Shown here in pieces: positions 59,387 to 63,739 of a stretch of DNA of 64,000 nt. Every line of letters starts with the position of its first letter. The stretch's first letter is position 1. A program made the translations under genes and the position numbers. The notes beneath the pieces were generated by a model that saw only the letters and a list, made by a program, of their open reading frames with translations, had not been told where the DNA came from and did no database searches. The stretch is from an uncultured Paracoccaceae bacterium (GTDB lineage: Bacteria > Pseudomonadota > Alphaproteobacteria > Rhodobacterales > Rhodobacteraceae): assembly GCA_947501555.1 (NCBI GenBank), contig CANMWG010000003.1, positions 62,001 through 126,000 of the forward strand, in the 5' to 3' direction.

Positions 59387-59485
59387 GGTGAGAGGTTGGC
59401 GCGGGCGAGCGCCTCGCCAACCTGGTCAGGTCCGGAAGGAAGCAGCCATAACGAGCCCCGCTTGGGTCGTTGTCAGCCTCTCACC
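59387..59485 (+). ncRNA. ffs: Bacterial small signal recognition particle RNA (4.5S type)
   Basis: The sequence carries the universally conserved SRP RNA core, GGTCAGGTCCGGAAGGAAGC followed by AGCC, around 59420-59446. The ends GGTGAGAGG (59387-59395) and CCTCTCACC (59477-59485) close a long hairpin, giving about 99 bases, the usual length in alphaproteobacteria. This RNA binds Ffh and directs membrane-protein ribosomes to FtsY. It has its own promoter and is followed by two hairpins. Confidence 0.93.
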
Positions 59486-59491
59486 TCCGTG

Positions 59492-59546: not shown

Positions 59547-59756
59547 GGCGGAGTCCACCAAAGCTCAGGCAACTCCACCGTAACGTTGCGACCTAAAGCA
59601 ACTTCGTACGCATAAAACCCCGCGCCTGGGAAAAGCCATTCAAATCAATGCGATCAGTGAACGTCTCAGCATAAAACTTATTACCTCGAATGTTTTTATT
59701 TGTATTGAGGCTTTGCTATGCTGGTACCCAAAGCAATGTATAGGTTTAAGGCCGCG

Positions 59757-60779
59757 ATGAATTTGATTTTTAGAAAGCTTCGGTTCGTTATATCTTTGAC
59801 CACTATTCTGTTTCCATTTTGCGCGGACGCCCAAGATATCGAAACCTATCAACTGACCGACGGTCGCACAGTCGCCCCACTGGACCTATTCCGCGAATGC
59901 GATGACTGCCCTGAAATGATTGTGGTGCCGCTAGGGTCATTCATGATGGGGGCGAAACCAGAAGAATCCCGCAATCGGTTCGATATTTATGGACCTGGCC
60001 TTACCTTAGGCGTGCGTGGCCCAGACGAATTAAACATCATTCCCCAGGAACACCCGCGCCACCCGGTCCAGATGGACATACCTTACGCAATGGGGCGCAA
60101 CGAGGTGACCCATAGGGAATGGATGCGCTGCGTGGCCGATGGCGGTTGTTCCCATGATCCGGATCATTCCGCCTTGACCCCGCGTGGGTATGTTGAGCTA
60201 GGGCCCGATCACCCGGTGGTGAATGTATCCTATCTTGATACGTTGGAATTCGTGGCCTGGCTCAACGCCAAAGTGGGCGCTGATGTCTACAGGCTGCCAA
60301 CGGAAGCAGAATGGGAATATGCCGCACGGGCGGGAACAGAAACACGGTTCGCCCAAGGCGATGAACTGACCGCCAATCAGGCAAATTTCTCTCGTCAAGC
60401 CACCGAGCATGTCCAGCAACCGCGATCATTCCCAGCCCTTGTGAACCGATATGTGCCAGTGCCCGTGATGGAGCTGGACGCTGCAAACGGGTGGGGACTG
60501 CGGCATATGTCTGGGAATGTTTACGAGTTAACAATGTCTTGTTGGTCAGGTGAGCATTTGGGGTTGACTACAAGCAGCGATTATCTGGCGGATGCATTTG
60601 CACAGGAAAGCTGTGGCTGGCTTGGTTACTCTAACCGCCGCGTCGCAAAAGGGGGCGGGTACACTACAGCAATGGATGGGGTACGTCTTGCCGCACGTAT
60701 CCGACCCAAGGCCGAAAGGCGCCGTAGTTACTTAGGGTTCCGTGTTGTTCGAGAATTCGTCATTTTTGGAGAACCGTAA
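59757..60779 (+). CDS. Secreted FGE-sulfatase (SUMF1) domain protein, paralogue 2
   Basis: This is a paralogue of the protein at 47328-48308. I start it at 59757, which opens a signal peptide (MNLIFRKLRFVISLTTILFP, then FCADAQ); the ATG at 59718 is an alternative. The 340-residue product shares the DLFRECDDCPEMIVVPLGSF opening, GRNEVTHREWMRCVADGGCS, the fold hallmark YRLPTEAEWEYAARAGTETR, NGWGLRHMSGNVYELTMSCW and RRSYLGFRVVREF. As in the paralogue, the FGE catalytic cysteine pair before GFR is missing, while CxxC and other cysteines are conserved between the two. Its activity is unknown. A hairpin follows the stop, and no sulfatase gene is nearby. Confidence 0.83.
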   Translation: MNLIFRKLRFVISLTTILFPFCADAQDIETYQLTDGRTVAPLDLFRECDDCPEMIVVPLGSFMMGAKPEESRNRFDIYGPGLTLGVRGPDELNIIPQEHPRHPVQMDIPYAMGRNEVTHREWMRCVADGGCSHDPDHSALTPRGYVELGPDHPVVNVSYLDTLEFVAWLNAKVGADVYRLPTEAEWEYAARAGTETRFAQGDELTANQANFSRQATEHVQQPRSFPALVNRYVPVPVMELDAANGWGLRHMSGNVYELTMSCWSGEHLGLTTSSDYLADAFAQESCGWLGYSNRRVAKGGGYTTAMDGVRLAARIRPKAERRRSYLGFRVVREFVIFGEP

Positions 60780-60788
60780 TGGCTCTTC

Positions 60789-60807
60789 GGACGCGCATCT
60801 TGCGTCC
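60789..60807 (+). terminator. Hairpin after the FGE-like gene
   Basis: GGACGC (60789-60794) and GCGTCC (60802-60807) pair around a seven-base loop, nine bases past the stop codon. There is no T-run, so its strength is uncertain. Confidence 0.4.
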
Positions 60808-60915
60808 AGCACCAAGTCCCGCTGCCCTGTTCTAGGTCAGCTGACGACGCTAAGCGTTTTGTTCACAACACTGCTTGGGACTGTCAGCGTCTTCATCGAG
60901 AAACCCTCAAAAACA

Positions 60916-61008
60916 GGAGGACAAAGATGATTGCGTTTTATACCCTCCCGGCCCGGGTGCGCTGAAGCTGTTTTCCACTCCCTCGTCCGGTTCCTGCTGG
61001 TAGGCATG
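60916..61008 (+). ncRNA. Micropeptide-bearing structured RNA element, copy 1
   Basis: The block 60944-61008 matches 62602-62666 in 63 of 65 bases. It follows a micro-ORF start with the Shine-Dalgarno GGAGG at 60916-60920. CCTCC at 60944-60948, inside that ORF, can pair with this site. Near its end CTGG pairs with CCAG just past the block (about 60996-61016). No gene with a ribosome site follows on this strand, so copy 1 may be a stand-alone small RNA. The ends of the transcript are not known, and I found no convincing promoter. Confidence 0.45.
60927..60965 (+). CDS. Twelve-residue micropeptide ORF, copy 1
   Basis: ATG at 60927 follows CAGGAGGACAAAG, a near-perfect ribosome site with seven to eight bases of spacing, and runs to TGA at 60963-60965. 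The predicted peptide is MIAFYTLPARVR. The second copy at 62585-62623 has the same length and the same last six residues, LPARVR. Only the N-terminal half differs. There is no run of one amino acid's codons, so this is not a classical amino-acid attenuator. Whether the peptide or only the act of translation matters is unknown. Confidence 0.45.
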   Translation: MIAFYTLPARVR

Positions 61009-61101
61009 TATCGCCAGATGTAACGCCCTATGAAAATAGTGCTTCGGCATTACGACCAAACCGAATGCCTTGCTTTGAAACGACCCTTCGTTAACAGACA
61101 T

Positions 61102-61707
61102 TCATCCACCACCGCCTTTGCAAAAAACAGGCAAAGCATCACGCCACCAATACGGGCCAAACGGCGGGGCGGGGCGGATATCAAATGCGAATTCGGTGTC
61201 ATCAAACGGATCAGCAGTCCCCAAGTCAGCCACATAATCCATTTCACAATCGCGGGCGTTGCTGCCGCTAAGGACGTGATCAAGCACCCAGCCCCCATCA
61301 TCATGCCGCAGCGTCACGGCCAAATATGAAAGACTATCGTCGCCCGAGCTATAAAGAACCGGGCGCTGATAATCGGTCCCACCGCGACCACCGCTATAGC
61401 TGACCGAAAACAAAGCATTCGCAGCCCGTAACCCTTCGGCGGGTAATACAGACGCGATGACGTCCGCAGGGCGTAAACGCCCCGTCTGCGCATCTGAAAA
61501 GAAGGTAATAAGATCAACGGCATCACCCGCATCGTTTATCGCCAAGAGCAAACGGTCATTCAGACCATCCCCATTCCAGTCTTGGCCACTGGCGTGCGCC
61601 ACCAACCGGGTCAAATCAACCTGTACGGGCGGGCCGACACCATCTGCGTAGGATATACATGGGGCACATAAGGCGGCCAAAACAGCACAATGTCTGATCA
61701 TTTTCAT
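61102..61707 (-). CDS. Secreted protein with a calcium-loop-like motif, paralogue 1 of a tandem pair
   Basis: This is a 201-residue protein started at 61707 (MKMIRHCAVLAALCAPCISY, a signal peptide ending around ADG); starts six bases either side are possible. The mature part opens with GQDWNGDGLNDRLLLAINDA, an FG-GAP/dockerin-like DxNxDGxxD loop that usually binds calcium. The next part is GDAVDLITFFSDAQTGRLRP. It ends in YWWRDALPVFCKGGGG. Cysteines at ARDCEMDY and VFC could pair. The gene upstream at 61719-62321 has the same layout, so they are tandem paralogues in an operon. The function is unknown. Confidence 0.72.
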   Translation of the reverse strand: MKMIRHCAVLAALCAPCISYADGVGPPVQVDLTRLVAHASGQDWNGDGLNDRLLLAINDAGDAVDLITFFSDAQTGRLRPADVIASVLPAEGLRAANALFSVSYSGGRGGTDYQRPVLYSSGDDSLSYLAVTLRHDDGGWVLDHVLSGSNARDCEMDYVADLGTADPFDDTEFAFDIRPAPPFGPYWWRDALPVFCKGGGG

Positions 61708-61718
61708 CACTCTTTTTG

Positions 61719-62321
61719 TCATGGCAAACAAGGGGCCGGCAGATCACGCCAATGCCAAGTGGCCAACAAGGGGGCAGACCCCGGATCATATGTCAGCAGG
61801 CCGCCATCGGGGCCAATCACACGCGCTGTTCCAGGGGCGGTTGGCGCATAGGGATCAATGAAGAATATCTCACAAATGCGGTCTGCCAGCTGCCCATCAG
61901 CATCAAAGGCATAGGTACGCACACTCAATAAACCCGCATCTTGATCGCTTGGGTTGGTGGTCATCAACAATGCGCGGTCGCCGAACCTGTATTCAATTTC
62001 AGGCTCATAGGCTTCGTGGGCAGGACCCACCCGATAGCTGGCATGAACCCGATCAGGATCATAAGGCAGAATATCCCGGCCGACCTGTGTTACATGCAAT
62101 GCCCCCGTATCCGGGACAGACGTGGCCAAATAAAGATCAACAGCATCACCTACTTCTGAAATCGCCAGAACCGCCAAATCCGTATGATTATCACCGTTCC
62201 AGTCATTATCACCGTATTCATCGGCCGCGTAGACCCCTAAAATCCGATCTGCGTCAATCATCAGCGGTTCGGCCATTACTGGCCCAGCGGCAATCAACAA
62301 CAGCCCTAATGGAAAATGCAT
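61719..62321 (-). CDS. Secreted protein with a calcium-loop-like motif, paralogue 2 of a tandem pair
   Basis: This is a 200-residue protein started at the ATG at 62321, with AAGGG upstream. It has a signal peptide (MHFPLGLLLIAAGPVMAEPL). The mature part has NDWNGDNHTDLAVLAISEVG followed by DAVDLYLATS, matching the DWNGD...D loop of the next gene. It ends in ATWHWRDLPAPCLP, matching that gene's WWRDALPVFC. A conserved C-terminal cysteine can pair with the one in LADRICEIFF. Eleven bases separate it from its partner, so they are co-transcribed. The shared motifs recall FG-GAP repeats of surface proteins. I cannot name a function. Confidence 0.72.
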   Translation of the reverse strand: MHFPLGLLLIAAGPVMAEPLMIDADRILGVYAADEYGDNDWNGDNHTDLAVLAISEVGDAVDLYLATSVPDTGALHVTQVGRDILPYDPDRVHASYRVGPAHEAYEPEIEYRFGDRALLMTTNPSDQDAGLLSVRTYAFDADGQLADRICEIFFIDPYAPTAPGTARVIGPDGGLLTYDPGSAPLLATWHWRDLPAPCLP

Positions 62322-62573
62322 CAAATGGCCCTTCGTCTAATACTCTTGCGACCATAGCGAACAGGATGCACCCAGACCAATAACATTTTAACGCGTGGCA
62401 AAATACTGCGCCCCATCGCCACCGCCAGTAGCAAATAGGGCAATTCCCCATTGATTTGCTGACGAAGTACCCCTGCACCGCACAGGACAGACACCTTGAC
62501 AACAAGGGTCCTCATCAGTCATCCAACACGTATCAGAAGTAATTTGCGCAGATTTTTGGCGAACAACCAACAA

Positions 62574-62700
62574 GGAGGACACTTATGACTGTATCAAACA
62601 TCCTCCCGGCCCGGGTGCGCTGAAGCTGTTTTCCGTTCCCTCGTCCGGTTCCTGCTGGTAGGCATGGTCCACCAGCCAATTCTGATGCCTTTGACGAGGA
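62574..62700 (+). promoter_or_regulatory. Micropeptide-bearing RNA element, copy 2, in the rsgA leader
   Basis: This is the second copy of the 65-base block (62602-62666), directly before rsgA. GGAGGA at 62574-62579 is the micro-ORF ribosome site. TCCTCC at 62601-62606 can pair with it over six bases. The same tract can instead pair with GAGGA at 62696-62700, the rsgA ribosome site. GCTGGT and ACCAGC form a hairpin at about 62653-62675. These alternatives could make a translation-controlled switch for rsgA. The pairing is read by eye and not calculated. Confidence 0.5.
62585..62623 (+). CDS. Twelve-residue micropeptide ORF, copy 2, upstream of rsgA
   Basis: ATG at 62585 follows AAGGAGGACACTT, a strong ribosome site, and runs to TGA at 62621-62623. 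The predicted peptide is MTVSNILPARVR. It shares length, ribosome-site spacing and the last six residues with the ORF at 60927-60965, while the first half differs. It ends 84 bases before the rsgA TTG start, so it can act as a leader ORF. An alternative frame through the repeat is open but lacks a standard start. Confidence 0.5.
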   Translation: MTVSNILPARVR

Positions 62701-62707
62701 CACCCCA

Positions 62708-63739
62708 TTGACCAATCTGACACGCGACGCCCTTGGCTGGTCGCCCTTCTATATGTCTCAGCTTGATATCGACGAGCTGGAAACTCTTACCCCTGCCCGC
62801 ATTGCAACGGTCCACCGGGACCGGGTGAATGCGCTGTCCGAGATCGGCCCGCTTGAGCTGACGCTTGATCCCGGGATCACCACTGCCGCGGTTGCGGTAG
62901 GCGATTGGGTGCTGGCTGCCCCGAAGCAGCACCGCCTGACCCGAGTGCTTGAGCGCAAAACAGAGCTGTCGCGCAGCACCGAATATCATACAGGCGAAAA
63001 GCAACTGATCGCGGCCAATCTCGACACGCTTTTTATCACGTCATCATGCAACAATGACTTCAATCCCGCCCGGCTGGAACGTTATCTGGCCCTAGCCCAT
63101 GACGCGCTGATCGCCCCGGTGATCCTGTTGACCAAAGCCGATCAAACGGACGATCCGGACGGCTATGTCGATCAGGCGCGCGGGTTGGGCCGCGATCTTG
63201 AGGTGATCGCAATCAATGCCAAATCAGATGATGTGGCGGAAAAGCTCGGGCCTTGGTGCGGCAAAGGGCAAACCGTGGCGCTGACCGGATCCTCCGGGGT
63301 AGGCAAGACGACGGTGGCCAATGCGCTAACCGGCGGGCGAGCGCTGACCCAAGACATCCGCGAAGACGACGCGCGCGGGCGGCACACCACAACAGGGCGG
63401 TCGCTGCATCATCTGCCAACCGGCGGTTGGCTGATCGACACGCCGGGGATGCGCGGGCTTGGGGTGGCCGAGGTCGCTTTCGGGATCGATGCCACCTTCC
63501 CCGAGATTTCCGAGCTCGCCACCCAATGCAAATTTCGGGATTGCGACCATGAGAGCGAACCGGGATGTGCCGTGCAGGCCGCCATTGCAGCAGGCACAGT
63601 CGATCCGGACAGACTGAAACGGTTCAAGAAGCTCAAACGCGAAAACTTGCAGGCAACCGAGACTATTGCGCAGGCGCGCGATCGGAATCGCAAGTTTGGT
63701 AAGAAGGTGAAGGCGGCGATGAAGAAGAAGGGGCGTTAG
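62708..63739 (+). CDS. rsgA: Ribosome small subunit-dependent GTPase A
   Basis: RsgA is a circularly permuted GTPase that helps the last steps of 30S subunit maturation. The TTG start at 62708 follows GAGGA. The 343-residue product has an N-terminal OB-like domain (about residues 20-105). Its GTPase motifs come in permuted order: VILLTKADQTDD (G4) near residue 143, GSSGVGKTTVANALTG (G1) near residue 197, and LIDTPGMRGLG (G3) near residue 245. The C-terminal zinc site is CKFRDCDHESEPGCAV near residue 280. Its leader contains the repeated micropeptide element, which may couple expression to ribosome state. A perfect palindrome lies 64 bases after the stop. Confidence 0.95.
   Translation: MTNLTRDALGWSPFYMSQLDIDELETLTPARIATVHRDRVNALSEIGPLELTLDPGITTAAVAVGDWVLAAPKQHRLTRVLERKTELSRSTEYHTGEKQLIAANLDTLFITSSCNNDFNPARLERYLALAHDALIAPVILLTKADQTDDPDGYVDQARGLGRDLEVIAINAKSDDVAEKLGPWCGKGQTVALTGSSGVGKTTVANALTGGRALTQDIREDDARGRHTTTGRSLHHLPTGGWLIDTPGMRGLGVAEVAFGIDATFPEISELATQCKFRDCDHESEPGCAVQAAIAAGTVDPDRLKRFKKLKRENLQATETIAQARDRNRKFGKKVKAAMKKKGR

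Follow-up and report, generated by a model that had tools for sequence, protein, structure and literature searches.

A Conserved Upstream Open Reading Frame and Alternative Pairing in the rsgA Leader of Yoonia and Other Rhodobacteraceae: a Candidate Translational Attenuator

Organization of the rsgA Leader

The rsgA gene of an uncultured bacterium of the family Rhodobacteraceae is preceded by a 12-codon upstream open reading frame (uORF) that is conserved in its own genus and in other genera of the family. Across genera, a segment located just past the uORF stop codon (segment c) is complementary both to the Shine-Dalgarno (SD) region of rsgA (segment d) and to the 3' half of the uORF (segment b), while leaders without the uORF show no pairing of the c-d type. 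The leader probably represents a uORF-controlled translational attenuator of the ermC/toiL kind, with rsgA expression being low when ribosomes complete the uORF (probability about 0.6). RsgA is a GTPase of 30S subunit maturation, acting late in ribosome assembly. If this reading is true, a uORF and a pairing switch located before rsgA in many marine bacteria and their relatives would provide widespread cis-acting control of a late ribosome-assembly GTPase, reading ribosome performance directly.

The window, a 64,000-nucleotide stretch of contig CANMWG010000003.1, originates from a genome close to Yoonia/Loktanella records. The following features are relevant to the leader:

59389-59486, plus strand: SRP RNA gene (ffs; Rfam RF00169), the usual upstream neighbour of the leader in relatives
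59718-60779: FGE-sulfatase-like gene, next after ffs in the window
60858-61008, plus strand: copy 1, apparently a displaced ancestral-type rsgA leader without segment d (92.7% identical over 151 nt to that of genome G006)
60927-60965, plus strand: ORF of copy 1, 12 codons, peptide MIAFYTLPARVR followed by a stop codon, GGAGG at 60916-60920
61102-61731 and 61719-62324, minus strand: two ORFs between the copies, no Pfam match at E 0.01
62572-62579, plus strand: segment a, SD of the uORF, AAGGAGGA; GGAGG is present in 32 of 33 leaders from Yoonia and in 53 of 60 from other genera
62585-62623, plus strand: ORF of copy 2, the rsgA uORF, 12 codons, peptide MTVSNILPARVR followed by a stop codon
62602-62606, plus strand: CCTCC, stressed in the original prediction; possible partner of segment a (weak a-b signal among genera, z = -1.6)
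62611-62617, plus strand: CCGGGTG, core of segment b within the uORF 3' half, with the potential to pair with c
62639-62648, plus strand: segment c, CCTCGTCCGG, predicted anti-SD of rsgA; at least six pairs with d in all 33 Yoonia leaders; for other genera, c-d z = -4.6
62654-62676, plus strand: variable hairpin P2 between c and d, from the fold of leader L005; 30 different inner-pair sets among 33 leaders
62693-62700, plus strand: segment d, GACGAGGA, SD region of rsgA, from the sequence
62708-63739, plus strand: rsgA, TTG start, 343 aa (Pfam RsgA_GTPase, E 2.9e-44)

As originally predicted, the blocks 60944-61008 and 62602-62666 are near-identical, with 63 of 65 bases shared and mismatches at positions 60977 and 60978, and both begin within 12-codon ORFs with a strong GGAGG site starting 11 nt 5' of the ATG. 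The accompanying claim that a downstream hairpin is kept in both copies was partly wrong: what is conserved is the pairing of c with d over a variable hairpin, and the copy 1 match ends at 61008, inside that hairpin. No third copy was found in the same genome either with a 102-nt query or with a 21-nt pattern allowing up to two mismatches.

Search of the window and 20 related loci against the Rfam 15 covariance models revealed only tRNA and SRP RNA at gathering score, along with two chance-level matches away from the leader. The leader itself had no match in these loci, and its membership in an Rfam family was rejected. No paper describing an rsgA uORF was found in the literature searched, in which subscription papers are mostly outside coverage; the available part of PMC10502375 names RsgA only for (p)ppGpp, and that of PMC10117765 does not mention rsgA.

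Conservation of the uORF in Yoonia

A 104-nt query from copy 2 matched 31 of the 56 genomes of the genus, once in each save for the two matches in the genome studied here. In each of the 30 loci returned for the genus, among them copy 2 itself, rsgA is located directly downstream of the match; the gene itself was detected at 1e-60 in 54 of the 56 genomes. This conservation of the block is far beyond chance. Outside the genus, a pattern comprising the uORF end plus the following bases, with at most one mismatch, was present in one of 293 genomes (L035), and no rsgA was found at that locus.

Thirty-three Yoonia leaders were chosen for holding GTGCGCTGA; their shared uORF end therefore reflects this selection, whereas the shared frame back to the ATG does not. 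All 33 uORFs are in frame from ATG to TGA, 15 of them with 12 codons and 18 with 13, so that the length is only 39 or 42 nt, and GGAG invariably starts 11 nt before the ATG. The spacer 3' of the stop codon varies by single bases between 13 and 16 nt. Since the spacer varies in length while the uORF steps by whole codons, it is the frame, and not the sequence alone, that is kept. The peptide end LP[VA][RW]VR, followed by the stop codon, is common to 32 of the 33 uORFs; the exception, L086, has a different uORF interior and the end LRFGVR, with the frame intact. Judged from these sequences, frame conservation in Yoonia is good evidence for translation of the uORF and poor evidence for a sequence-specific peptide.

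The proposal of a micro-ORF in the rsgA leader, retained in frame and tied to structure over the rsgA ribosome site, is supported. No support was obtained for the proposed key role of the CCTCC tract, which is present in 26 of 33 Yoonia uORFs vs. 25 of 60 uORFs of other genera; CCTCC as a conserved core was rejected on the latter count, and the supported anti-SD sits 3' of the stop codon instead.

The uORF stop codon is located 77-84 nt before rsgA in Yoonia. In-frame stops occur between segment d and the TTG in, for example, L023 and L034, and conserved TTTGACGAGGA thus need not be coding. Reading of the genus leaders by eye revealed no such uORF in L055, L090, L092, L095, L097, L118, and L121, and a diverged one in L094, L096, L098, L099, L119, L120, L122, L126, L128, and L129. 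The start is unsure in L112, L114, and L130, the upstream DNA is too short in L067 and L087, and L117 is without a usable match. In genome G033 (L016), rsgA matches in two pieces. In the tool alignment of the 33 leaders, P2 and the two uORF length classes (12 and 13 codons) are misplaced, and structure was hence counted per sequence by script.

uORFs in Other Genera

At 1e-50, RsgA was found in 149 of 296 genomes of the family Rhodobacteraceae. Some of the genomes of this family carry a second RsgA type with about 44-47% identity, and in G061 (L134) rsgA is reported with an internal TAA. The 108 leaders analyzed are those fetched from the 149 matching genomes; nearly all belong to other genera, and one represents the second paralog of a genus member. 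An ATG uORF of exactly 12 codons with an SD match of at least 5 is present in 45 of the 108 leaders, compared to 0.1 in shuffled sequences and one on the reverse strand. Under the loosest criteria, an SD-bearing ORF of 11-14 codons, the count rises to 67 of 108, part of which is due to chance, as shuffles gave 6.6 and the reverse strand 13. The encoded peptides have the form M-(x)-IV-xx-LRA-xxx or similar, with ends that differ among genera (LRA.., LPAGAR, PSGQR). The codon preceding the first uORF valine ends in T in 43 of 44 cases in other genera, a UGU constraint. Leaders of the second RsgA type (LGWxPFF) are among those without a uORF.

Sixty of the 67 leaders were kept for pairing tests: L135 and L198 fell outside the narrower window, and L136, L147, L183, L216, and L225 were judged by eye to look like chance cases and discarded before any pairing score was computed. 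Redundancy removal left 58 leaders. Some starts in distant leaders, such as L248, were guessed from the alignment offset. The distance from the uORF stop to rsgA is 60-123 nt in the 60 family leaders.

Beyond the family, 28 loci were scanned, three of which proved to be family members; a similar M..IV..AG-like uORF was recognized by eye, without shuffle control, in 11 of the remaining 25. The pattern ATTGT..CTYCGGGC was found in 23 of 150 genomes; among the 25 places listed, five are at rsgA by coordinates and 20 elsewhere, and a reversed-pattern control gave five. Elements of this type may thus occur at sites besides rsgA.

Linkage to the SRP RNA Gene

SRP RNA is located 5' of the leader in 17 of the 20 related loci according to the Rfam scan. 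An SRP motif was detected upstream of 28 of 60 leaders in the family set and of 25 of 33 in Yoonia; some cases are missed because the motif is strict and upstream stretches are short. In 16 of the 28 family leaders with the motif, the 3' end of SRP RNA lies 18-33 nt before the uORF ATG; in Yoonia this distance is 52-106 nt. The gaps of 18-33 nt leave no room for a promoter, and therefore the rsgA mRNA is probably read through from ffs or starts within it. A further prediction of the attenuator reading is expression of rsgA from the SRP RNA transcript.

Complementarity Between Leader Segments

The segments were defined by position: a, the uORF SD; b, the last 27 nt of the uORF; c, the region past the stop codon; and d, the rsgA SD. 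Native segment pairs were compared with pairs re-dealt among the 58 leaders of other genera in 10000 permutations. Strong complementarity was found for b-c (z = -7.3) and c-d (z = -4.6), with 0 of 10000 permutations reaching the native value in either case; shuffling one or the other partner of these two pairs led to the same result (Stouffer -5.1 to -9.7). The control pairings a-c (z = -0.2) and b-d (z = +0.3) were null in the same 58 leaders; the latter value leaves the suggested pairing of CCTCC, located in the uORF 3' half, with the rsgA SD without a signal. Pairing of the uORF SD or 5' part with the uORF 3' half (a-b) is weak, with 522 of 10000 permutations at z = -1.6. The proposed pairing of CCTCC with the SD of its own ORF is thus weakly supported across genera; local support comes from L032, where a compensatory change at SD/CCTCC replaces one G-C pair by A-U. 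An unexplained within-leader complementarity was also observed between the uORF SD and the rsgA SD (a-d, z = -4.0).

Complementarity of the region -80..-35 to the SD was z = -3.58 in leaders with the uORF (n = 60) vs. z = +1.35 in those without it (n = 24), the latter being the leaders with a usable start among the 48 outside the 60 and including five of the dropped seven, which hold a loosely defined ORF.

In Yoonia, CCTCGTC of segment c pairs with GACGAGG of segment d, with at least six pairs in the excised c-to-d segment of all 33 leaders; TCTCGTC and CCTCGCC each occur as a variant of c in one leader. The inner pairs enclosed by c-d form 30 different sets among the 33 leaders. The Yoonia b core, CCGGGTG, is our own reading of the sequences, and its outer pairs are lost in some variants. 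In one group of leaders c is CTGCCTG, d is CAGGCAG, and b is CGGGCAG or CAGGCAG, so that b mimics d at the level of sequence. CTGCCT is present in c of 13 of the 60 family leaders. In 11 of these, and in L252 from another family, one and the same c core matches both the uORF and the rsgA SD more closely than shuffled c does (joint switch score, p <= 0.05). Taken singly, p 0.05 in the joint score is reached by 15 of 60 family leaders, 3 of 24 extra leaders, and 1 of 8 Yoonia leaders tested, and in several leaders the native c is outscored by its shuffled versions, with p as high as 1.0. Folded as single sequences, the elements gave five structures no better than those of shuffles (z = -0.07 to +1.30), and a stable single-sequence fold was rejected.

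Simulated Ribosome Positions and Proposed Mechanism

Ribosome positions were simulated by equilibrium folding with the ribosome footprint blocked. In the 60 leaders of other genera, pairing of the rsgA SD with c was 0.12 in the free leader, 0.14 with the ribosome at the start codon, 0.38 at codon 6, and 0.32 at the stop codon, the difference between start and stop having p 8.4e-6. Mean accessibility of the SD was 0.45 at start and 0.39 at stop; 34 of the 60 leaders went up and 16 down, the wrong way. In Yoonia, the corresponding pairing values were 0.66, 0.62, 0.69, and 0.71. In this model, the position of the uORF ribosome would affect rsgA expression; a switch is predicted for the other genera but only a weak one for Yoonia, where c-d dominates and b-c would have to win during transcription.

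In the proposed mechanism, pairing of c, located just 3' of the uORF stop codon, with d would turn rsgA off, while b, when free, would pair with c and compete it away from d. A ribosome completing the 12-codon uORF would cover b but not c, allowing c-d to form and keeping rsgA low. If the uORF is left uncompleted, because active ribosomes are scarce or because a ribosome or 30S subunit is held at the start codon, b-c would form first during transcription and rsgA would be translated. Since failure to complete the uORF would free rsgA, its expression would be raised when translation capacity falls. We infer this direction, in which completion of the uORF lowers rsgA, from the location of c outside and b under a terminating ribosome: the footprint of such a ribosome reaches about 10 nt beyond the stop codon, and CTCGTCC begins 14-17 nt past the uORF stop in Yoonia. 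Translation of the uORF in the cell and the signal to which the switch responds are likewise what we infer.

Through the leader, rsgA output may be tied to ribosome performance, and feedback on rsgA through 30S maturation is possible. A more specific version, in which the leader is a sensor of ribosome capacity, seems doubtful. Here an immature or idle 30S subunit, whose 16S 3' end still binds the strong uORF SD while elongation is impossible, would stay at the uORF start codon, leaving b free and thereby turning rsgA on, and protein targeting and 30S maturation would share one transcript via ffs read-through.

Comparison with Known Systems

The organization of the leader resembles that of a translational attenuator of the ermC/toiL kind. 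A short SD-bearing ORF, presumably translated, precedes the gene in the 33 Yoonia leaders and in 45 of the 108 other leaders; the rsgA SD is predicted from sequence and folding to be sequestered by leader segment c; and c can pair alternatively with the uORF (z = -7.3, 58 leaders), weakly in Yoonia (1 of 8). The ermC attenuator comprises four segments, with 1-2/3-4 pairing alternating with 2-3 pairing, a sequestered gene SD, and a leader ORF upstream. The rsgA leader resembles it in the four segments, alternative pairing, SD sequestration, and upstream ORF, but its segment 2 consists of the last uORF codons, and 1-2 pairing is poorly supported across genera. Unlike ermC, which arrests on macrolide, the uORF peptides contain no conserved arrest motif.

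The CUCCUCCC-motif sRNAs of Rhodobacter are stress-induced free RNAs with an anti-SD-like C-rich tract. The rsgA leader shares with them such a tract and the bacterial family, but it is a cis leader, and CCTCC is not its conserved part.

According to the available part of PMC12121999, the toiL uORF of the E. coli topAI-yjhQ operon is likewise combined with a structure occluding the downstream ribosome site, and ribosome position decides; toiL, however, controls a toxin-antitoxin operon and opens on antibiotic stalls. The product of the gene behind the rsgA leader is a GTPase of ribosome assembly, and it is c for which b and d compete. An alphaproteobacterial uORF was also proposed to report translation efficiency in the S. 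meliloti DUF1127 system, where impaired initiation leads to the ON state (PMC12218461); it differs in its length of 29 aa, a Rho-type attenuation element and a different gene, and SD sequestration is not mentioned in the available part of that source.

Alternative Explanations

The opposite direction of control, in which the leader is melted by a ribosome that is translating or departing from the uORF, coupling translation into rsgA, with the uORF acting as a ribosome-loading ramp, appears unlikely. It could account for the strength of the uORF SD and for the distance between the uORF stop and rsgA (60-123 nt in the family leaders, 77-84 nt in Yoonia), and an active opener may be needed in Yoonia, where c-d is largely formed in every simulated state. 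Against it, the reach of a stop-codon ribosome, about 10 nt, falls short of CTCGTCC, which lies 14-17 nt past the stop in Yoonia, and the simulated stop-codon ribosome raises, rather than lowers, mean pairing of the SD with c. Rho-dependent transcription attenuation, with uORF completion exposing or hiding RNA for Rho and the pairing only tuning the outcome, is rather unlikely. Its precedent is the S. meliloti DUF1127 uORF with a presumed Rho attenuation element (PMC12218461, available part); transcription of rsgA may continue from the SRP RNA gene, which is untranslated, and repression of translation would itself invite Rho, but the element supported here is the rsgA SD itself. Intrinsic termination was rejected, as no intrinsic-terminator-like site (GC hairpin plus U tract) was found on the plus strand at 60780-62760, a scan that says nothing on Rho. 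A stall peptide sensing a small molecule, such as an antibiotic or amino acid, through its residues is improbable. The common Yoonia peptide end would fit it, and its RVR resembles a macrolide-arrest motif. However, the ends differ from genus to genus (LRA.., LPAGAR, PSGQR), R to W changes occur, L086 is in frame and yet ends in LRFGVR, and the constant residues coincide with RNA segment b; with R to W changes and other ends, no conserved macrolide-arrest motif was found in the uORF peptides.

It is very improbable that the two blocks delimit a mobile element or form a pair of trans-acting RNAs, in spite of the direct repeat flanking two ORFs and the lack of a detected 61719-62324 homolog in G006. 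Copy 1 with its upstream flank (60858-61008) matches the G006 rsgA leader with 92.7% identity over 151 nt, including the pre-uORF sequence. The match breaks off at 61008, within the P2 hairpin region, and the rsgA ribosome site is missing. Only one of the 56 genus genomes, the one studied here, showed two copies. The suggestion that copy 1 acts in trans thus found no favour: it appears to be a leader that was displaced and truncated at 61008. Homologs of the minus-strand ORF 61719-62324 were detected in three of the 56 genus genomes, own included; in G051 they are located immediately 5' of the rsgA leader, divergently, in the same arrangement as at copy 2. The G006 match and the G051 homologs together point to recombination between leaders as the explanation of the repeat, which would account for the high identity of the copies without a trans function. 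Copy 1 looks like a leftover duplicate, the original front half of the leader severed from rsgA, and the simplest history, judged from three genomes, would be a within-leader recombination that inserted the gene pair plus a second leader. The two minus-strand ORFs at 61102-62324 are related to each other, about 200 aa each, and secreted-looking by eye.
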